A model generated the notes under the pieces. The model made no database searches and was not told the DNA's origin. It saw only the letters and a program-made list of their open reading frames with translations. A DNA stretch of 64,000 bases from Bacillota bacterium. Its GTDB lineage: Bacteria; Bacillota; SHA-98; UBA4971. The translations under genes were made by a program, and so were the position numbers. Each line of letters begins with the position of its first letter. Position 1 is the first letter of the stretch. The DNA lies in the NCBI GenBank assembly GCA_012516125.1, contig JAAYXB010000090.1, positions 1 through 64,000 of the forward strand, given 5' to 3'. Positions 54,627-64,000 of this stretch are shown here, piece by piece.

Positions 54627-54704
54627 TCTGCATAATGGCAAGCTGCACGGGGAATACGAAGACTAAGTGTGGGTTGTGTATCTGGATCTGGGAGGTCAGG
54701 ATCC

Positions 54705-55916
54705 ATGCCGCTCCTTACTTATGACTCGCCCAACACCACCAGGGTCTTCGGCAGGGGACCGTATCAAACCAACGCTGCCGTAACACAGCTCGTCTTCGGG
54801 CGCCGGTCGAATGCAGTCATCCTTGCAAGCTCCGAGCACCCCTTGGACACCATCGCCGCCCTCTCACTCGTGCACCAGCCCATCGACGGGCCGGTGCTCC
54901 TCAGTCCGCCGGGCGGTCTCGACCCAGTTGTCCTGGACGAGGTTCGCAGGCTGGCGCCGATGGGCGCAGAGGGTCTTGCGCAGGTCATCATCGTTGGAGC
55001 GCTCGGCAATGCCGTTGAGCAGCAGGTGGCCTCGCTGGGGTTCTCGGTGATGAGGCTAACCGGAATGAACGCCTACCACACCGCGGCGGAGATCGCAAGG
55101 TTCCTCGGTTACCCCAGAGACATCATGCTGCTATCGGGTGAGCATCCTCTCTCAGGCCTCTGCGCGGGAGCCATGGCCGTGCACGCCGGAATACCCGTGC
55201 TCTTCACCCTGAAGGATACCCTTCCCCAGGAGACAGCCGGAGCGATCCGCGCCTCCGGAAAGTCTGTGAACGTGTTCATCGTGGGCAGCCGCAGCCTCAT
55301 CTCGGACGAGGTGGAAGAGGCGGTCCGCGACCTCACCTCAGGCACGGTCGGGAGGATCTCCGCGGAGGACCCCTTCGAGCTCTCCGTGAAATTCGCAAAG
55401 TACCGCTCCGCGGACGGAAGGTTCGGGTTTAGCAAGACCGAGAAGCGGGGCCACGCGTTCACCTTTGTCAACCCTGGGAGATGGCAGGACGCGATATCCG
55501 CTGCGCTCCTTGCGCACACGGGCAAGCACACGCCGATTCTCTTCTGCCGTCGGGACGACCTTCCGGCGGTCGTCCGCGATTACCTCCTCCAAGTGAACCC
55601 GGCGCACGGAAGGCCCGAGCCCCCGTTCATGCACGCATTCATCGTTGGTGATTTCGACGCCATATCCGCCTCAGTGCAACTCGACATAGACGACACCATA
55701 TCCATAGACAGGAAAGCCGATCATGAAGTCGTGCACACCGTCGCCCCCGGCGACAGCCTCCTTCATATCGCAAGGCGCTACGGCGTGCCGATACGAGATA
55801 TCGTCGGCGCGAACCAGCTGTCGGCTGAAACGGGCCTTGCGCCCGGGTCGAGGCTCCTCATCCCATACACCGTCACCGGAGCGCCCCCGCCCCCGTCGCA
55901 ACAGGAACTTCACTGA
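54705..55916 (+). CDS. cell wall-binding (CWB2-like) and LysM domain protein
   Basis: This 403-aa protein has CWB2-like repeats: RVFGRGPYQTNAAVTQLVFG at about 9-28 and RLTGMNAYHTAAEIARFLG at about 110-130, plus a weaker third repeat near 215-235. Each is followed by a VILAS/IMLLSGEHP-type strand and a VIIVGALG-type strand. A LysM domain (HTVAPGDSLLHIARRYGVP with IRDIVGANQL) occupies about 345-392. No signal peptide is visible from ATG 54705, although GGGAGG precedes it. It may bind peptidoglycan or spore cortex; its place of action is unclear. Confidence 0.78.
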   Translation: MPLLTYDSPNTTRVFGRGPYQTNAAVTQLVFGRRSNAVILASSEHPLDTIAALSLVHQPIDGPVLLSPPGGLDPVVLDEVRRLAPMGAEGLAQVIIVGALGNAVEQQVASLGFSVMRLTGMNAYHTAAEIARFLGYPRDIMLLSGEHPLSGLCAGAMAVHAGIPVLFTLKDTLPQETAGAIRASGKSVNVFIVGSRSLISDEVEEAVRDLTSGTVGRISAEDPFELSVKFAKYRSADGRFGFSKTEKRGHAFTFVNPGRWQDAISAALLAHTGKHTPILFCRRDDLPAVVRDYLLQVNPAHGRPEPPFMHAFIVGDFDAISASVQLDIDDTISIDRKADHEVVHTVAPGDSLLHIARRYGVPIRDIVGANQLSAETGLAPGSRLLIPYTVTGAPPPPSQQELH

Positions 55917-55963: not shown

Positions 55964-57241
55964 TCAGAACCTGTAGACCAGGGTGACCCCGGACTTGAAC
56001 CTGTGAGTGTTCTTCGTCTCCCTGAGCGGGTACTCTCGGCGCTTGATCTCGGCCTCATAAGTGATGTCGATGTCCTGAGAGAGGTCATAGGTAAGCTTCC
56101 ATGCGACCTCTGTCTCGCTGTAATCTTCATCCCTCTCCTCCGGGTCCGCGTAAGCCCTGCGGGACAGCACGCACCCCGCGCAAAGCGCAAGCCTGTCACC
56201 CGCCGAAAACTCTGCCTCTGCGCCGATGCTCTGGGCTCTGTACTCCTTCTTCGTGGACGCGGGCACCTTCCGCTCGAACACCGTCCCCTCAAGGGTCAGT
56301 GTGCCCACGACGGTCCCTCCCATCGACAGCGACGCAGCAAGTTCCCGGTCGCGAAGGTCCTTTTCGCGGGCGAACGGAAACTCCTTGTCTACGTGAGAGA
56401 GTATCAGGCCCACAGAGAGACGTGGTCTGGGATCCCATGACAGCGTAATCTCACGGGTGTGCTGGTCATACGTTTTGTTGCGGGACCCGGGGTAAGCCGC
56501 ATGCTTTCGCTCGAGCCTGACCTTTCCTCCCAGCTTCTCGGTTTGCTTGACGCCCAGTTCAAACCAAGACACACTTGTGGTCGAGCTTTTGTACGGCGCG
56601 ATGCGGTACTCCCTGTCGATGAGGTTGAGGCCTACCAGAGCGGACGTTCGCGGCCCGGGAACCACCCTGACCTCGCCCGAGACCTCCCGGCAGTCATGGT
56701 CGCTCGCGGGCCGATATGGATAGGTCGCCCCTTCTTTCTCCCAGGCAACTTTCGTAGACATTCGCCCGGAAGGCGATCTCCATGACACCGCAGCCCTGAG
56801 GATAGACGAGACGCGTTCCGTTGCCAGCTCGCCGGCGTCCTCGGACTCAAACGTCCTGCTCCTTCTGGCGTCCAGGTCGAGCCTGAGCCCTCCTCCCGCC
56901 TTTGCTGCAAGTCCTATCGCAGCGTACCCCAGGGCACCGCACCCGGCAGGGTGAGGTCTCGCGCCTGCCGTGATATCACACGATATCCCTCCCCCGGCCG
57001 GCAGGTGCAGCTTACCGTCGAACGCCATGCCGAGCCTCATCCCATCACCCCCGGAATCCGCGTAAGATGACGAGAATTCCAGCGTAAGCTTGCCGCTCAG
57101 GCGCGCTGCCGCCGTGCCCCCGCCGCGCTCGGCGTCTCCACTGGCAGCCGTGAGCCCTTCTGGAAGGAAGACCCACGATACTGCGAGCACATACACGAAC
57201 ACCCCGACCAGCCTGCCGAAAGCCGTCCTCCTGCCCCCCAT
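55964..57241 (-). CDS. putative secreted beta-barrel (outer-membrane-like) protein
   Basis: This 425-aa protein has a signal peptide (basic start, hydrophobic core FVYVLAVSWVFLP, cut near residue 33). The rest is almost entirely amphipathic strands separated by short polar turns, many with Arg/Glu/Lys alternation, and it ends in VTLVYRF. A C-terminal aromatic residue preceded by alternating hydrophobics is the signature of BAM-inserted outer-membrane barrels. I recognise no named family. It has its own promoter and lies between a CWB2/LysM gene and the ornithine operon. If real, it implies a diderm envelope. Confidence 0.6.
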   Translation of the reverse strand: MGGRRTAFGRLVGVFVYVLAVSWVFLPEGLTAASGDAERGGGTAAARLSGKLTLEFSSSYADSGGDGMRLGMAFDGKLHLPAGGGISCDITAGARPHPAGCGALGYAAIGLAAKAGGGLRLDLDARRSRTFESEDAGELATERVSSILRAAVSWRSPSGRMSTKVAWEKEGATYPYRPASDHDCREVSGEVRVVPGPRTSALVGLNLIDREYRIAPYKSSTTSVSWFELGVKQTEKLGGKVRLERKHAAYPGSRNKTYDQHTREITLSWDPRPRLSVGLILSHVDKEFPFAREKDLRDRELAASLSMGGTVVGTLTLEGTVFERKVPASTKKEYRAQSIGAEAEFSAGDRLALCAGCVLSRRAYADPEERDEDYSETEVAWKLTYDLSQDIDITYEAEIKRREYPLRETKNTHRFKSGVTLVYRF

Positions 57242-57324: not shown

Positions 57325-57353
57325 ATGATACCATGTCCTGCCATGGCGGACAA
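57325..57353 (-). promoter_or_regulatory. sigma-A type promoter for the beta-barrel gene
   Basis: On the minus strand, -35 TTGTCC (57353-57348) and -10 TATCAT (57330-57325) are separated by 17 bp. It lies just downstream of a terminator for the ornithine operon and gives a leader of about 77 nt. Confidence 0.6.
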
Positions 57354-57387
57354 TCCCACTTTCGGGTGATCCTCCCTCCGGCCAGCG

Positions 57388-57620: not shown

Positions 57621-57863
57621 CTACTTCCGCTTCTTGACAAGCCCCAGGGAGACAGCTTTCGCGTAATCCTTACAGTTCTCGCAATCCCTCCAGCAGTCCA
57701 GACAGCCTTCCTCCGAGTCCCAGCAATTGTCATGCCTTGCATATACCGGGCAAATAAGGTAAAGGCTCGCAGGGCATCCCCTGAGCTGGCGGCAGCTTCT
57801 CAGGCTCGCAACGGATACGCCCTCCGGAAGCTCGACCTCGGCCACGCGGCACCACTCCTTCAT
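57621..57863 (-). CDS. small cysteine-rich protein
   Basis: This 80-aa protein has nine cysteines. Two are near the front (EWCRVAEVELP, RSCRQL), two in the middle (RGCPASLYLICPVYARHD), and a dense cluster lies at about 50-66 (NCWDSEEGCLDCWRDCENCK). The spacing suggests a metal or Fe-S site. I do not recognise the family. ATG 57863 has GGAG eight bases upstream. It follows the COG2403 gene by 97 bp and precedes the operon terminator, so it is probably co-expressed with the ornithine genes. Confidence 0.65.
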   Translation of the reverse strand: MKEWCRVAEVELPEGVSVASLRSCRQLRGCPASLYLICPVYARHDNCWDSEEGCLDCWRDCENCKDYAKAVSLGLVKKRK

Positions 57864-57960
57864 GGCAGTTGCTCCAGCTATTCCCCTGACGTCCAGAGTG
57901 TACCACACGGTCCCGGACGAGTCAACTTCGCTGGCTCGGTCTCCCAGTTTAGACTCCCGG

Positions 57961-59304
57961 TCAAAAGAGCCTCCCTTTGAACCTCTCCACGATGATCTCT
58001 TCCAGGGTCGGATGGCCGATCTCCTCAAGCTCATAGCGGACGCGCAGCGCCGGCTTGGTGATGTTTATCACGCGGCGCAGGTCGATAGGCGTGCCGATGA
58101 TGACAACTTCAGCAGGAGTCCTGTTTATCGTTTCCTCGAGCTCCCGTATCTGCTCTCTGCCGTACCCCATAGCGGGCAGGAGTGGCTCGAGGTCGGGGTA
58201 TTTCTTCAAGGTCGCCTTGATGGAGCCCACGGCGTAAGGCTCTGGGTCCACGAGCTCTGCCGCTCCGTGACGCCTCGCTGCGATCACCCCGGCTCCGTAG
58301 GTCATGCCGCCGTGGGTCAGCGTCGGGCCGTCCTCAACCACAAGGGCTCTCTTGCCCCTTATCATATCGCCCTGCTCGAGCACAACCGGGGAAGCTGCCC
58401 GGATGACGATCGCGCCTGGATTGATCCTCTTCACCGCGCTCTCGACCCTGTCCACGTCCTCAGGTTTCGCAGTGTCCACCTTGTTCAGGATGACCACATC
58501 CGCCATCCGGAGATTGGTCTCGCCGGGGTGGAACGAGGTTTCGTGGCCCGGCCTGTGCGGGTCTGCAAGGGTGATGTGGAGATCAGGCTGATAGAACGGC
58601 ATGTCGTTGTTACCGCCGTCCCAGAGGACGACCTCCGCCTCTTTCTCGGCCTCCATGAGGATCGCGCCGTAATCGACCCCCGCATAGACCACAAATCCCC
58701 TCGAGATGTGCGGCTCGTACTCCTCGCGCTCCTCTATCGTAGTGTCGTACCTATCCAGGTCCTCGAACGTCGCGAATCTCTGAACCTTCTGCTTTATGAG
58801 GTCCCCGTACGGCATGGGATGGCGGACGACCACGGCTTTCTTGCCGTGCTTCTTCATGATATCCGTCACCCTGCGCGTCGTCTGGCTCTTGCCGACACCG
58901 GTCCTGACGGCCGTGACAGCGATGACCGGCACCTTCGATTTCAGCATCGTGGTGCCTGGACCCATAAGGCGGAAATCCGGCCCCTTCGCCAGAGCGACGG
59001 ACGCCCTGTGCATCACGTCGAGATGGGAGACGTCGCTGTATGCGAACACCACCTGATCCACGCCATGCTTTTCTATGATGGCGGGGAGCTCCTCCTCGGC
59101 AAGGATGGGAATGCCGTCGGGGTAGCCCTTGCCCGCAAGCTCGGGCGGGTAGCGCCTCCCTTCGATATTGGGGATCTGCGTCGCCGTGAACGCCACCACC
59201 TCGTACCCGTCGTTGTCGCGGAAGAACGTGTTGAAGTTGTGGAAATCGCGTCCCGCAGCGCCCATGATCACTACCTTCGTCTTCCTCGCCACTTGAGACC
59301 TCAC
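57961..59304 (-). CDS. COG2403 GTPase, cyclic 2,3-diphosphoglycerate synthetase-like
   Basis: This protein of about 447 aa has an N-terminal Rossmann-like part (KVVIMGAAGRDFHNFNTFFR) and a P-loop domain (TAVRTGVGKSQTTRRV) with LWDGGNNDMPFY and VILNKVDTAKPEDV. The family includes archaeal cyclic 2,3-diphosphoglycerate synthetase and many uncharacterised bacterial GTPases. GTG 59304 or GTG 59292 could be the start. It follows the GlmL-like gene by 32 bp at the end of the ornithine aminomutase cluster, so a role linked to amino-acid degradation is as likely as cDPG synthesis. Confidence 0.82.
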   Translation of the reverse strand: MRSQVARKTKVVIMGAAGRDFHNFNTFFRDNDGYEVVAFTATQIPNIEGRRYPPELAGKGYPDGIPILAEEELPAIIEKHGVDQVVFAYSDVSHLDVMHRASVALAKGPDFRLMGPGTTMLKSKVPVIAVTAVRTGVGKSQTTRRVTDIMKKHGKKAVVVRHPMPYGDLIKQKVQRFATFEDLDRYDTTIEEREEYEPHISRGFVVYAGVDYGAILMEAEKEAEVVLWDGGNNDMPFYQPDLHITLADPHRPGHETSFHPGETNLRMADVVILNKVDTAKPEDVDRVESAVKRINPGAIVIRAASPVVLEQGDMIRGKRALVVEDGPTLTHGGMTYGAGVIAARRHGAAELVDPEPYAVGSIKATLKKYPDLEPLLPAMGYGREQIRELEETINRTPAEVVIIGTPIDLRRVINITKPALRVRYELEEIGHPTLEEIIVERFKGRLF

Positions 59305-59336
59305 TCCCGTCCTCTCATGAATGATGTTGCCTTGCG

Positions 59337-60695
59337 TCACCCGGCAAGCCCGAGGCTCCGTAGCATTATGGCAGTGGCCGCCTCCGGATGCGATCTCGCG
59401 AGCACGCCGCATGACGCCATCACATAGTCCCGATCTATCGCGCACATCGCGTCCGGCGGCGGAAGAAGCCGCATGTCCCCACGTCGTCCCTTCACGGCTT
59501 CCAGTATGCGCCCGCCTTCAGGTAGCCTAGTCGCGGCACCGCCTGTGCCGATGATCCACCTGACCCTTGTCAGGTCCTTTCCCTCCGCCACCGTGATCCT
59601 GCCAAGCGGGCCATAGAGGTGCCGAACATCCCCCGCGTGGCGCATGACGGCAATCCGCGCCGCCTCTACCGCGAGGGCCCGCGCAAGGCGCAGCCCCCTT
59701 TCGGTTGAAGGGACCGGCTCGAGCTCGGCCAGCGCCTCGGCCGGGTCGAAGCCGAGGTTTTGCGCAACCCTCTCCCGGCCCACGAGGTCCACGATGTTAC
59801 CGGCATTCACGAATACACCGAGGTCGCCCTCGACGGTGCGCTTTGCGACAGGCTCCGGGCTCGTGAGGATCTTCGCGATCTCCTCCGACCCCTCGGTCAC
59901 CGAGTGGACGTCGGTGGTGGCGCCCCCCACGTCGATGACCACGAGGTCCCCTATCGCATCGTAGAGCAGCTTCGCCGCGGCCATCACGGCACCGGGCGTC
60001 GGCATGATTCCACCGTGCGCCATCTCGCGCACGCGGTCCATTCCCGGAGCGGTCACGATGTGCTCTTCGAAGACTCTCTGGATCGCACGCCTCGCAGGCT
60101 CGATGTTGAGGACGTCCACCCGGGGGTACACGTTCTCAACGACCGTGACCGCGGTCCCGGCGCCCTCGAGAATGGCCTTCACCTCATCCTGAACAGCCCT
60201 GTTGCCAGCGTATATCACAGGGGCCTCCACACGTGCGCCCGCGATGAGCCTCGCGTTTTCAAGGACCGTCTCTCTCTCGCCGAAGTCCACGCCACCCGCG
60301 AGAAGGATGATGTTGGGACGTATGGCCCGGAGCCTCGCGAGGTCAGCCTCGGACAGGCGCCCGGCGGTCACCATCTTCAGGACGGCCCCAGCCCCGAGCG
60401 CCGCCTCCTTCGCGGCCTTGACCGTCATGTCGTACACCAGCCCGTGGACGGTCATCCGAAGCCCGCCTGCCGCGCTCGACGTCGCGAGGAGCGCCCCATA
60501 TTCAACGCGCGCCGTTCCAAGAGCGTGTCCGAGGTCCTCAATGGCCCTCTCGAGACCCAGCCCGACGTCGCCTTCCTGCACAGTCGTGAGCGCCTTGCCC
60601 TGCCCCAGAAACATCGGGTTCGGGCCGTCCACCCCATCGAAGGCGTTCACCAGGGTTGTAGTGCTGCCGATCTCGGCAACCAGCACGTCCATCAC
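59337..60695 (-). CDS. GlmL/MutL-type ATPase associated with ornithine aminomutase
   Basis: This 452-aa ASKHA-fold protein has VAEIGSTTTLVNAF (phosphate loop), LLATSSAAGGLRMTVHGL, VVIDVGGATTDVHSV and WIIGTGGAATRLPEGG. GlmL proteins accompany B12-dependent aminomutases and probably reactivate or protect the cofactor. The ATG overlaps the oraE stop by four bases. Its role with OraSE is inferred from position. Confidence 0.88.
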   Translation of the reverse strand: MMDVLVAEIGSTTTLVNAFDGVDGPNPMFLGQGKALTTVQEGDVGLGLERAIEDLGHALGTARVEYGALLATSSAAGGLRMTVHGLVYDMTVKAAKEAALGAGAVLKMVTAGRLSEADLARLRAIRPNIILLAGGVDFGERETVLENARLIAGARVEAPVIYAGNRAVQDEVKAILEGAGTAVTVVENVYPRVDVLNIEPARRAIQRVFEEHIVTAPGMDRVREMAHGGIMPTPGAVMAAAKLLYDAIGDLVVIDVGGATTDVHSVTEGSEEIAKILTSPEPVAKRTVEGDLGVFVNAGNIVDLVGRERVAQNLGFDPAEALAELEPVPSTERGLRLARALAVEAARIAVMRHAGDVRHLYGPLGRITVAEGKDLTRVRWIIGTGGAATRLPEGGRILEAVKGRRGDMRLLPPPDAMCAIDRDYVMASCGVLARSHPEAATAIMLRSLGLAG

Positions 60696-63055
60696 CCGGC
60701 AGCCCCCGCGCCTGGTTCTGCACCTGCGTCCGCCCCTGTGGCCGCGCCTTCCCCTGCCCTCGCCCTTGCCCTTGCCCTTGCTCCTTCGCCTTCGCCCGCA
60801 CCTGCGCCTGCTCCTGCTCCGGGTCCGGTTCTATTTCCCGCTCCGGCCTCCTTCTCGCGAAGCTTTCGCACGAGGAAACTCGCCACATCTATGCCCCGGG
60901 TCCCCCTTCCGAACCCGCCGTCCATCCCCGACTCCGCCGCGATGTCCCACGTCACCTGGGTGCCTCCGGCGACCAGGAGCACCTTGTCACGGATGCCCTT
61001 CTCGACGCACAGGTCGGCAAGTTTCTTCATGTTCATCCTGTGGACGTCAGCGTGGGTGATTATCGTGCTGATCAGGATGGCGTCGGCGCCCACCTCGATT
61101 GCCGCGTTCACCAGCTTCTCAACAGGACAGGACGTGCCGAGGTAGTGGCATTCGATGCCGAACCCCTCGATGCCGCCGTGCTTTATGTCTAGTATCTCCC
61201 GGAGGCCCACGGAGTGCTCGTCCTGGCCCACGGTCGCCGCAACCACTTTGACGCCCCGTTCCTTGACGAACCCCCTGATCTCGTCGGGCGAAAGGGTCTT
61301 ATGCTCCTCAGGGATCCTCAGGCTCGCAAGCTCGATCCCGAAGGGCACCTTGCCCTTCACCTCGACCAGGGTGCCCTCCGCAGGATGCATGACCTCCTTG
61401 TGGATAGCCTTCGGCTCCTCGAGGCCGAGCCTGCGCGCGGTCTCGAGCGCCGCAGCCTCTGCCCGGGCCTCGTCAAGAGGCCAGAACATGGTCATGGTCA
61501 CGACCCGGTCTTGGGCCCACTCGACCTCGGGGTAAACCACGCCCGGGGGGCCAGCCTCGAGCGCAGCCAGCCTGGACTCGACGTTGTCGGTCGGGTCAAG
61601 CTCGTCGATGTACACGATCTTCTCCGGGTTACACAGGGTGCACCCACCGATGAGATCGCAGGGCTGGTCAGCCCTGGTTCCTTCAGGAAGGTGGTTTTCA
61701 CCGAAGTGAGCGCAGACAGGGGCCATGTAGTCCGGATCGCGTGGCACTATGGTCCCCGCCGCCACGCCCCCCTCCGGGTCCCGCGCTATACCGTCGCCGT
61801 TGCGCTCGGGGTACATCCCCGAGTCAACGAAGAACCCGCGCCGCACGGCCTCGAAGTACCCGCCGACATCGAGGATCTCCTCGAGGAACAGGACGGCGCG
61901 CTCCGTGATCTCCCGCGCTTTTCTCTCGAGCTCACCATCGGGGCTGTCGTCGAGCCTCACCATGCTCCGCAGGCCGTCGAGCCCGACCAGCAACTGCTTT
62001 GCAGTGTCCAGCGCCGCGATGTTGTTATAGTGCCAGGGGACGTTCCGCCCTTCGTCAGGGGTGATGGTGCTCTGGATGTCCGCGCTCGTGAGCCTCGACA
62101 ACATGAGGTTCAGAGCATGGGTGACCGTTGCCTCGCGCGTGGAGGACTCGATGTACTTGGTGTTCATCTGCGCCCGGAACCTGTACCCTGCGAACAGCCT
62201 GCGAAGGGCCACGGCGTAGGGAAGGTCGAGGCGCATCTCCGGGGCGGGCGGCGCCGTCGGGGGAACGGTGGACAGACATATGTTTTCCTTCGCCATGCCC
62301 ACCTTCACCGAGTACACGCAGTTGATGGCGTGCTGGACCATCAGCTCGGGCATGACCTTCCACGCCTCGCGCGCGGTGGCGTTGGCGTTGTGCGCCCCGT
62401 CGATCTGCGCCATCCCCGCCCATTGCATCAGGGTCTTGGCCACCGCGGCGTCTACGAAAGACCTGTACATGTTGACGTTCCTGTAAAGGACGTTGTACTG
62501 CGGGTCCTGGTGGGCACCGTTCACGCCTTCCTCGGCGAAGAGGACGGCGATCTCCGGGCCTGCGACCCCGCTCACGTAGGAGTGGAAATTGATTGGCCGC
62601 CCCACCTCGTCCTCGATGAGGTCGAGGGCCTTGCGCGTCGCGCGCACCTGCTTGCGCGTGATGGGGACCCCACCGACCCCTTCGGGCGTGCCCTCGATGA
62701 GCCCGTCGAAGTGACTCTGGCCGGTGGTGCGGATGACCATTATGTGGTCCGCCCCGTGCCAGGCGGCCATCCTCATCCGCCTTATGTCGTCCTCGAAGCG
62801 ACCGGACGCGATCTCCGTGGTTACCACCATCTCCGGCTGCGGGTCTATGCCGCGGAAGTGCTTGGCCGCAGGAAGCGGCACGGACCGTTCCAGGGGGCGC
62901 GATATCTGCTGGTACTCAAACGGCCCGAGGCTCGTTCCCGGCGGCAGCTTCTCGCGCCAAACCCAGCCGCGTCGCCTCGGCCTGTAATGCTCGAGGTCCC
63001 GCAGGATTTCCCGCACATCCAGCTTCTCGTCGGGGCAAAGCTTCCTCCCGCCCAC
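60692..63055 (-). CDS. oraE: D-ornithine 4,5-aminomutase, large subunit
   Basis: OraE, with OraS, moves the delta-amino group of D-ornithine to C4, giving 2,4-diaminopentanoate, using adenosylcobalamin and PLP. The 787-aa protein has a TIM-barrel region (about 80-560) and a Rossmann B12 domain with the cobalt-ligating DEHSVG at 612-617. Lys 625 (LDIKHGG) corresponds to the PLP lysine of characterised OraE. The natural end is near residue 737; the last 50 residues are Gly/Ala/Glu/Arg repeats coded by simple-sequence DNA (60695-60844). Confidence 0.93.
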   Translation of the reverse strand: MGGRKLCPDEKLDVREILRDLEHYRPRRRGWVWREKLPPGTSLGPFEYQQISRPLERSVPLPAAKHFRGIDPQPEMVVTTEIASGRFEDDIRRMRMAAWHGADHIMVIRTTGQSHFDGLIEGTPEGVGGVPITRKQVRATRKALDLIEDEVGRPINFHSYVSGVAGPEIAVLFAEEGVNGAHQDPQYNVLYRNVNMYRSFVDAAVAKTLMQWAGMAQIDGAHNANATAREAWKVMPELMVQHAINCVYSVKVGMAKENICLSTVPPTAPPAPEMRLDLPYAVALRRLFAGYRFRAQMNTKYIESSTREATVTHALNLMLSRLTSADIQSTITPDEGRNVPWHYNNIAALDTAKQLLVGLDGLRSMVRLDDSPDGELERKAREITERAVLFLEEILDVGGYFEAVRRGFFVDSGMYPERNGDGIARDPEGGVAAGTIVPRDPDYMAPVCAHFGENHLPEGTRADQPCDLIGGCTLCNPEKIVYIDELDPTDNVESRLAALEAGPPGVVYPEVEWAQDRVVTMTMFWPLDEARAEAAALETARRLGLEEPKAIHKEVMHPAEGTLVEVKGKVPFGIELASLRIPEEHKTLSPDEIRGFVKERGVKVVAATVGQDEHSVGLREILDIKHGGIEGFGIECHYLGTSCPVEKLVNAAIEVGADAILISTIITHADVHRMNMKKLADLCVEKGIRDKVLLVAGGTQVTWDIAAESGMDGGFGRGTRGIDVASFLVRKLREKEAGAGNRTGPGAGAGAGAGEGEGARARARARAGEGAATGADAGAEPGAGAAG

Positions 63056-63061
63056 CCCGCC

Positions 63062-63427
63062 TCACCTCCCGGCCCCAAAGAGGCCCGCCACCTCATCCCA
63101 CATCCTGCCCTCGGCAAGGGCAACCCCGGCCTCGCGCACGCTCATCCCGCGGGCGCTGGCAAGCTTCCAGACCACATGGCCCGCACCCTTGCCGAGAAGG
63201 CCCTTCTCAACGCACTTATCCACGATGGCCTTCGCCTCCAGGCTCGAAAACCCCATCCGGAGGAGCACAGACCTCTCAATGGAAGGGGACGTGTGGGTGC
63301 GCGCGAGATCCACCAGGGGCTGCACCACCCTGTCGGCAAGCTCCCAAAAGTACCTTGCAAGCTCCTCATCGCTCATGCCGGCAAGATGCCGGCGCCTCTC
63401 CTCGAAATCATCTGGCCGCATCATCAC
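63062..63427 (-). CDS. oraS: D-ornithine 4,5-aminomutase, small subunit
   Basis: This 121-aa alpha subunit of ornithine aminomutase contains RPDDFEERRRHLAGMSDEEL, ERSVLLRMGFSSLEAKAIVD and GHVVWKLASARGMSVREAG, which match OraS. The GTG 63427 start overlaps the ortB stop (GTGA) with GGGAGGG upstream. It is 6 bp before oraE, as expected for subunits made together. Confidence 0.9.
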   Translation of the reverse strand: MMMRPDDFEERRRHLAGMSDEELARYFWELADRVVQPLVDLARTHTSPSIERSVLLRMGFSSLEAKAIVDKCVEKGLLGKGAGHVVWKLASARGMSVREAGVALAEGRMWDEVAGLFGAGR

Positions 63428-64000
63428 GCTCGGCCCTCCCCTCCCCCAAGCTCGCGCATAGTCTCCTCGACAAATGCCACGGTGGAGTTTGTGTCCTCGG
63501 CAAGGAACCTGATATCCTCCGTTGATATCTGCCGGCCTTTCGCGTGGGACAGGGCGTTTCGTATGTAGGACCTCCGGATGTCAACAAGGGGCACCTCCTT
63601 CACATGGATCTGCGAGGGGTGCTCCGGTATGACTATCCGTTTCCCGGGCACGTTCTCACGGGGATCGCCGCGCCTCACCTCGACTCCCATCTCTCGCGCG
63701 AACGAGAGCTGCGCGTACGGGTGCTTGCCGGCGCCTGTGTACTCGGTCTCCTGGACCACCACCACCTGGTCGCGGTCCATCTCGCGCGCGATGGCGATGG
63801 CGGCCGCAAGAGACGTGTTTCCGGCGGGGCCTCGCTCCATGCCTTCCAGCTTCGCCAGCATCTCGGTAACGTAGAAGACCTCCCCCTGCGTCACGGTGAC
63901 GTACCTGTCCATGTAGCGAAGGGGTCTCGCAGCGTTGCGAGGCACGTCCGCCCTATCGGGCCACGTCGCGAACGGAATGCCGAAGCCCGTGTGCCCGGTG
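63424..64000 (-). CDS. ortB: 2-amino-4-oxopentanoate thiolase, PLP subunit (OrtB), C-terminal part
   Basis: About 191 codons are present with no start before the right edge, so this is the C-terminal part of a longer gene. Visible are RGPAGNTSLAAAIAIAREM, VVVQETEYTGAGKHPYAQL and VPGKRIVIPEHPSQIHVKE, which fit the PLP fold-type II subunit of OrtAB. OrtAB cleaves 2-amino-4-oxopentanoate with CoA to acetyl-CoA and alanine, the step after OraSE and the diaminopentanoate dehydrogenase. The next gene, oraS, overlaps its stop. Confidence 0.88.
   Translation of the reverse strand, partial: TGHTGFGIPFATWPDRADVPRNAARPLRYMDRYVTVTQGEVFYVTEMLAKLEGMERGPAGNTSLAAAIAIAREMDRDQVVVVQETEYTGAGKHPYAQLSFAREMGVEVRRGDPRENVPGKRIVIPEHPSQIHVKEVPLVDIRRSYIRNALSHAKGRQISTEDIRFLAEDTNSTVAFVEETMRELGGGEGRA

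Follow-up and report, generated by a model that had tools for sequence, protein, structure and literature searches.

We analyzed a window of 64,000 nucleotides (the whole stretch of contig JAAYXB010000090.1 that was examined) from a Bacillota bacterium and found that its gene P0001, on the minus strand at positions 55964 to 57241 (425 aa plus stop), very probably encodes an outer-membrane beta-barrel protein of an LPS-containing, diderm and sporulating member of this phylum; this degree of confidence applies to the barrel assignment itself. The assignment is based on an export signal, the amphipathicity of the predicted strands, hairpin repeats, conservation within a family, co-occurrence with Omp85 and the presence of an outer-membrane machinery in the same genome.

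The first-pass annotation of this DNA had described a barrel-like gene with a signal peptide, a strand-rich body and a C-terminal Tyr-Arg-Phe. Its coordinates proved exact for a minus-strand open reading frame of 425 residues, and all three features were recovered. A ribosome site (GGGGAGG) lies directly 5' of the ATG at 57241; the frame is open beyond this ATG, and the upstream extension is not kept in relatives. The N terminus, MGGRRTAFGRLVGVFVYVLAVSWVFLPEGLTA-AS, reads by inspection as a type I signal peptide covering approximately residues 1 to 34 (MGGRR...GLTAAS; 57140..57241, minus strand), the h-region of which is kept in congeners. The mature barrel region (residues 44 to 425; 55967..57112, minus strand), as delineated by low-confidence models, a strand-dyad test and self-alignment, is predicted to comprise 18 to 20 strands arranged in about 10 hairpin repeats, each of 38 residues, the first beginning at about residue 47. 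It ends with the putative beta-signal SGVTLVYRF (55967..55993, minus strand), in which hydrophobic residues alternate at positions -1, -3, -5, and -7. The same kind of ending, VVYRF or LVYRF, is seen in all five congeners, and a terminal F is likewise found in the genome's BamA, LptD-like protein, three SLH-porins and two small barrels, while the four class-level relatives all lack a terminal aromatic residue (the last residue is I or L in two of them, and the other two finish with FD).

Strongly alternating 10-residue windows made up 14.7% of the mature protein versus 3.2% in shuffles, and in the strand-dyad test none of 2000 shuffles of the mature part reached the observed value (z 6.5), in good agreement with the strand-rich body noted at first pass. 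The dyad z was -1.2 to 0.4 for six cytosolic proteins of the window, used as controls, and -1.3 to 0.3 for LpxA, LpxC, LpxD, and LptF, the inner-membrane or cytosolic products of the outer-membrane cluster described below; for the genome's BamA, its LptD-like protein, an SLH-porin and the two small barrels it was 2.2 to 7.6. Because periplasmic LptA scored 2.5, the test marks strand-rich envelope proteins and not barrels alone. Self-alignment of the protein gave repeat offsets near 38, 76, 78, 114, 116, and 152 (0/200 shuffles). AlphaFold2 models of the full-length and mature protein, built from four-sequence alignments, were of low confidence (pTM 0.35 and 0.44, mean pLDDT 37.6 to 42.6). Foldseek run on the better of these low-confidence models returned no significant PDB match, and a sequence profile search of the PDB with the barrel protein yielded nothing meaningful.

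In the mechanism that we propose, the protein would be exported by the Sec system, and its C-terminal aromatic beta-signal would be recognized by the genome's own BamA. It would then fold as an up-and-down barrel of about 18 to 20 strands, connected on one side by short turns and on the opposite side by recurring YP..P...Y loops, each about 10 to 12 residues long. These loops are probably outside, since the final strand has to terminate on the periplasmic side. Closure of the barrel, its topology and the number of strands are what we infer from this pattern. The protein harbors no plug, passenger, SLH tether or periplasmic domain, which makes a pore its most likely role; we see about an even chance that, alongside the SLH-tethered OmpM porins, it works on its own as a diffusion pore or a gated channel. 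As for cargo, neither a functional domain nor a consistent metabolic partner gave a clue.

The assembly holding the window (3.24 Mb in 98 contigs, 98.5% complete) contains a BamA/Omp85 protein (E 5.2e-54) with POTRA repeats. This finding is the more relevant in that the first-pass annotation had named the absence of bamA from the genome as evidence against its reading; the gene is present, and it lies inside an LPS/outer-membrane cluster. On contig C89, genes in one direction encode BamA, a Skp-like ORF, an OmpH-like coiled-coil protein, LpxD and YjbH-like and OMPP1-like barrels, and the same stretch continues with LptF/G, an LptD-like protein, an LptC-like ORF, LptA, LpxC, LpxA, and an LpxI-like ORF. 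BamA, LptA, LptD-like, LptF, LpxA, LpxC, and LpxD were assigned by Pfam, while the LpxI-like and Skp-like genes are ORFs. Approximately 12 kb past the far end of the cluster, the same contig carries a tandem array of three OmpM-type genes, whose products combine an SLH domain with a barrel ending in F. The search for lptD, lpxC and OmpM-type SLH porins suggested at first pass thus returned all three, the first as an LptD-like gene. Two Spo0A_C matches were also found in the genome (best 1.9e-41), supporting the prediction that the bacterium is a spore former.

The occurrence of BamA, the LPS/outer-membrane cluster, the SLH-porins and Spo0A in one genome supports the diderm inference, and by its predicted gene content the bacterium really is equipped for a second membrane containing LPS. 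The earlier claim that the barrel gene alone suggests a diderm organism was therefore right in its conclusion but overstated what one gene can tell; about ten other genes now support it. Negativicutes and Halanaerobiales have been reported to carry the same gene complement (PMC5007114), which, going by what is cited in PMC10628300 and PMC10665443, has been extended to Limnochordia. Diderm, LPS-making, sporulating Bacillota are rare but previously documented.

Two features of the cluster may be recorded here. The YjbH-like and OMPP1-like small barrel genes lie between LpxD and LptF (L002:13331-15102). The LptD-like gene lies inside the cluster (L002:9887-12250), and its N-terminal domain scores above the Pfam cut-off, while its barrel domain is just under it (18.9 versus 22.4); no clear LptD was found in Negativicutes and Halanaerobiales (PMC5007114).

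We then looked at the distribution of the barrel family. The protein shares 54 to 88% identity with its congeners (n = 5) and about 20% with proteins from class-level genomes (n = 4), and a profile search of the phylum recovered relatives in 20 of 399 genomes. Omp85 was present in all 20 barrel-positive genomes (all 17 that fall in the shared sample and, in addition, G015, G016, and G396), compared to 78 of 300 sampled genomes overall, a co-occurrence with a Fisher p of 3e-11 by genome and of about 1e-4 by family, the family counts having been read by hand. There is no curated model for this family, the window protein matches no Pfam model, and a plasmid search with the gene gave no match. In one genome of a sister genus (G006), the EF-G and GTPase genes lie about 100 bases apart (L062:10097-10310) and the barrel gene is gone, while BamA is kept. 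The barrel gene has been cleanly lost in at least one sister-genus genome, and an outer membrane can therefore exist without the protein.

Across several families, the gene occupies one conserved locus, with a P-loop GTPase gene on one side and an EF-G-like gene on the other. In f63, f74, and f3 genomes it again adjoins the same GTPase and/or EF-G-like gene, and this shared position, together with a profile-profile match (98.8% for f63/f74), supports the homology of the distant members. Beside the gene in the window we observed a small Cys-rich ORF (C..W....CLDCWRDCENC; 57621-58034, minus strand) without a Pfam match, which is also kept next to the barrel gene in the genus, G013, and G015. On the other side, a gene for a CWB2 and LysM protein with no obvious signal peptide (54669-55916, plus strand) is convergent with the barrel gene and, among the loci compared, was seen only in the genus.

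Within the genus, the barrel gene appears to have its own vegetative-type promoter, a predicted sigma-70-type element (TTGTCC-17-TATCAT; 57325..57353, minus strand) kept in five of six members. A 20-mer, ATCACCCGAAAGTGGGATTG, lies just upstream of and overlaps the -35 box (57351..57370, minus strand) and is kept in 5/6 congeners; it was considered as a regulon box and rejected, being single copy in the genome. An Rfam search around the gene found nothing.

We tentatively propose, at somewhat below even confidence, that these proteins form an ancient, SLH-free channel family specific to diderm Bacillota, whose P-loop GTPase/barrel/EF-G-like locus has been kept across several families at about 15 to 20% identity and which has been lost in some lineages that keep their outer membrane. 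If so, the family would have descended vertically from the ancestral Firmicutes outer-membrane proteome, as a remnant located outside the known cluster. Diderm, LPS-making Bacillota bear on the question of whether the ancestor of the phylum was two-membraned, and an SLH-free family that tracks Omp85 at a fixed position outside the cluster would provide a second marker of vertical outer-membrane inheritance.

Alternatively, the gene could encode a channel that specifically takes up ornithine or other amino acids and is linked to the D-ornithine aminomutase operon directly upstream. The window does contain a D-ornithine 4,5-aminomutase cluster (OraS, OraE, a MutL-like protein, a cobW-like GTPase and an OrtB-like ORF; 57961-63945, minus strand), and the barrel gene comes after MutL/GTPase/OraE/OraS in 6/6 genus members and after MutL/GTPase/OraE in G128, from another family. 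However, family f63 and G013 to G015 keep the GTPase and/or EF-G neighbor, and no aminomutase genes were found nearby. Moreover, because the gene has its own predicted promoter in the genus, the ornithine neighborhood may be mere inherited gene order. The tie to this cluster is thus suggestive in the genus and G128 but not general, and we consider a dedicated ornithine channel unlikely.

A somewhat less probable explanation still is a barrel functioning like EpsL, the outer-membrane protein associated with XrtB/PEP-CTERM (TIGR03014), and letting or helping exopolysaccharide or surface polysaccharide across the outer membrane. Indeed, EpsL is the best named relative by profile and is similar in length; the match covers a stretch of some 200 residues within the hairpin-repeat barrel (142 to 344; E 2.3e-7), and 8 of 10 barrel-family members match it, more distant relatives doing so weakly. 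The score of the window protein is nevertheless about a tenth of the cut-off (30.2 versus 275 bits), the genome has no match to exosortase (PF09721), and no polysaccharide genes were recognized beside the barrel gene in the lineages examined, the neighbors being the GTPase, EF-G and the ornithine aminomutase cluster. A secreted strand-rich protein of the cell wall or spore envelope, a reading that Spo0A and the CWB2/LysM cell-wall-binding protein encoded next door might favor, is very improbable given that the family is confined to Omp85-positive genomes and given the C-terminal beta-signal, the matches to outer-membrane barrel families and the vegetative-type promoter.

Returning to the outer-membrane barrel, we compared the family with known systems. 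An MtrB-like electron conduit was rejected: the decaheme-associated barrel MtrB/PioB (TIGR03509) matched one relative at a nonsignificant E of 0.045, the barrel protein is shorter, and no cytochrome genes were recognized beside the gene. The putative beta-barrel porin 2 family, BBP2_2 (PF10082), matched relative L068 at 7e-6, above the Pfam cut-off, and one A1 member at 9e-4, while the window protein itself gave no match. For an SLH-free barrel in a diderm Firmicute there is a precedent in Vpar_1106 (PMC5491611). The known pores of diderm Bacillota are mostly OmpM, and the OmpM paralogues of Veillonella have been argued to be its sole porins (PMC10628300). OmpM, of which the genome has three genes, is likewise an outer-membrane barrel of diderm Bacillota; unlike it, the protein described here has no SLH domain or coiled-coil stalk, is about half as long and is encoded outside the outer-membrane cluster. 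Judged by sequence, the family is distantly related to the EpsL and BBP2 barrels and is neither EpsL nor OmpM, and it represents a second candidate channel beside OmpM.
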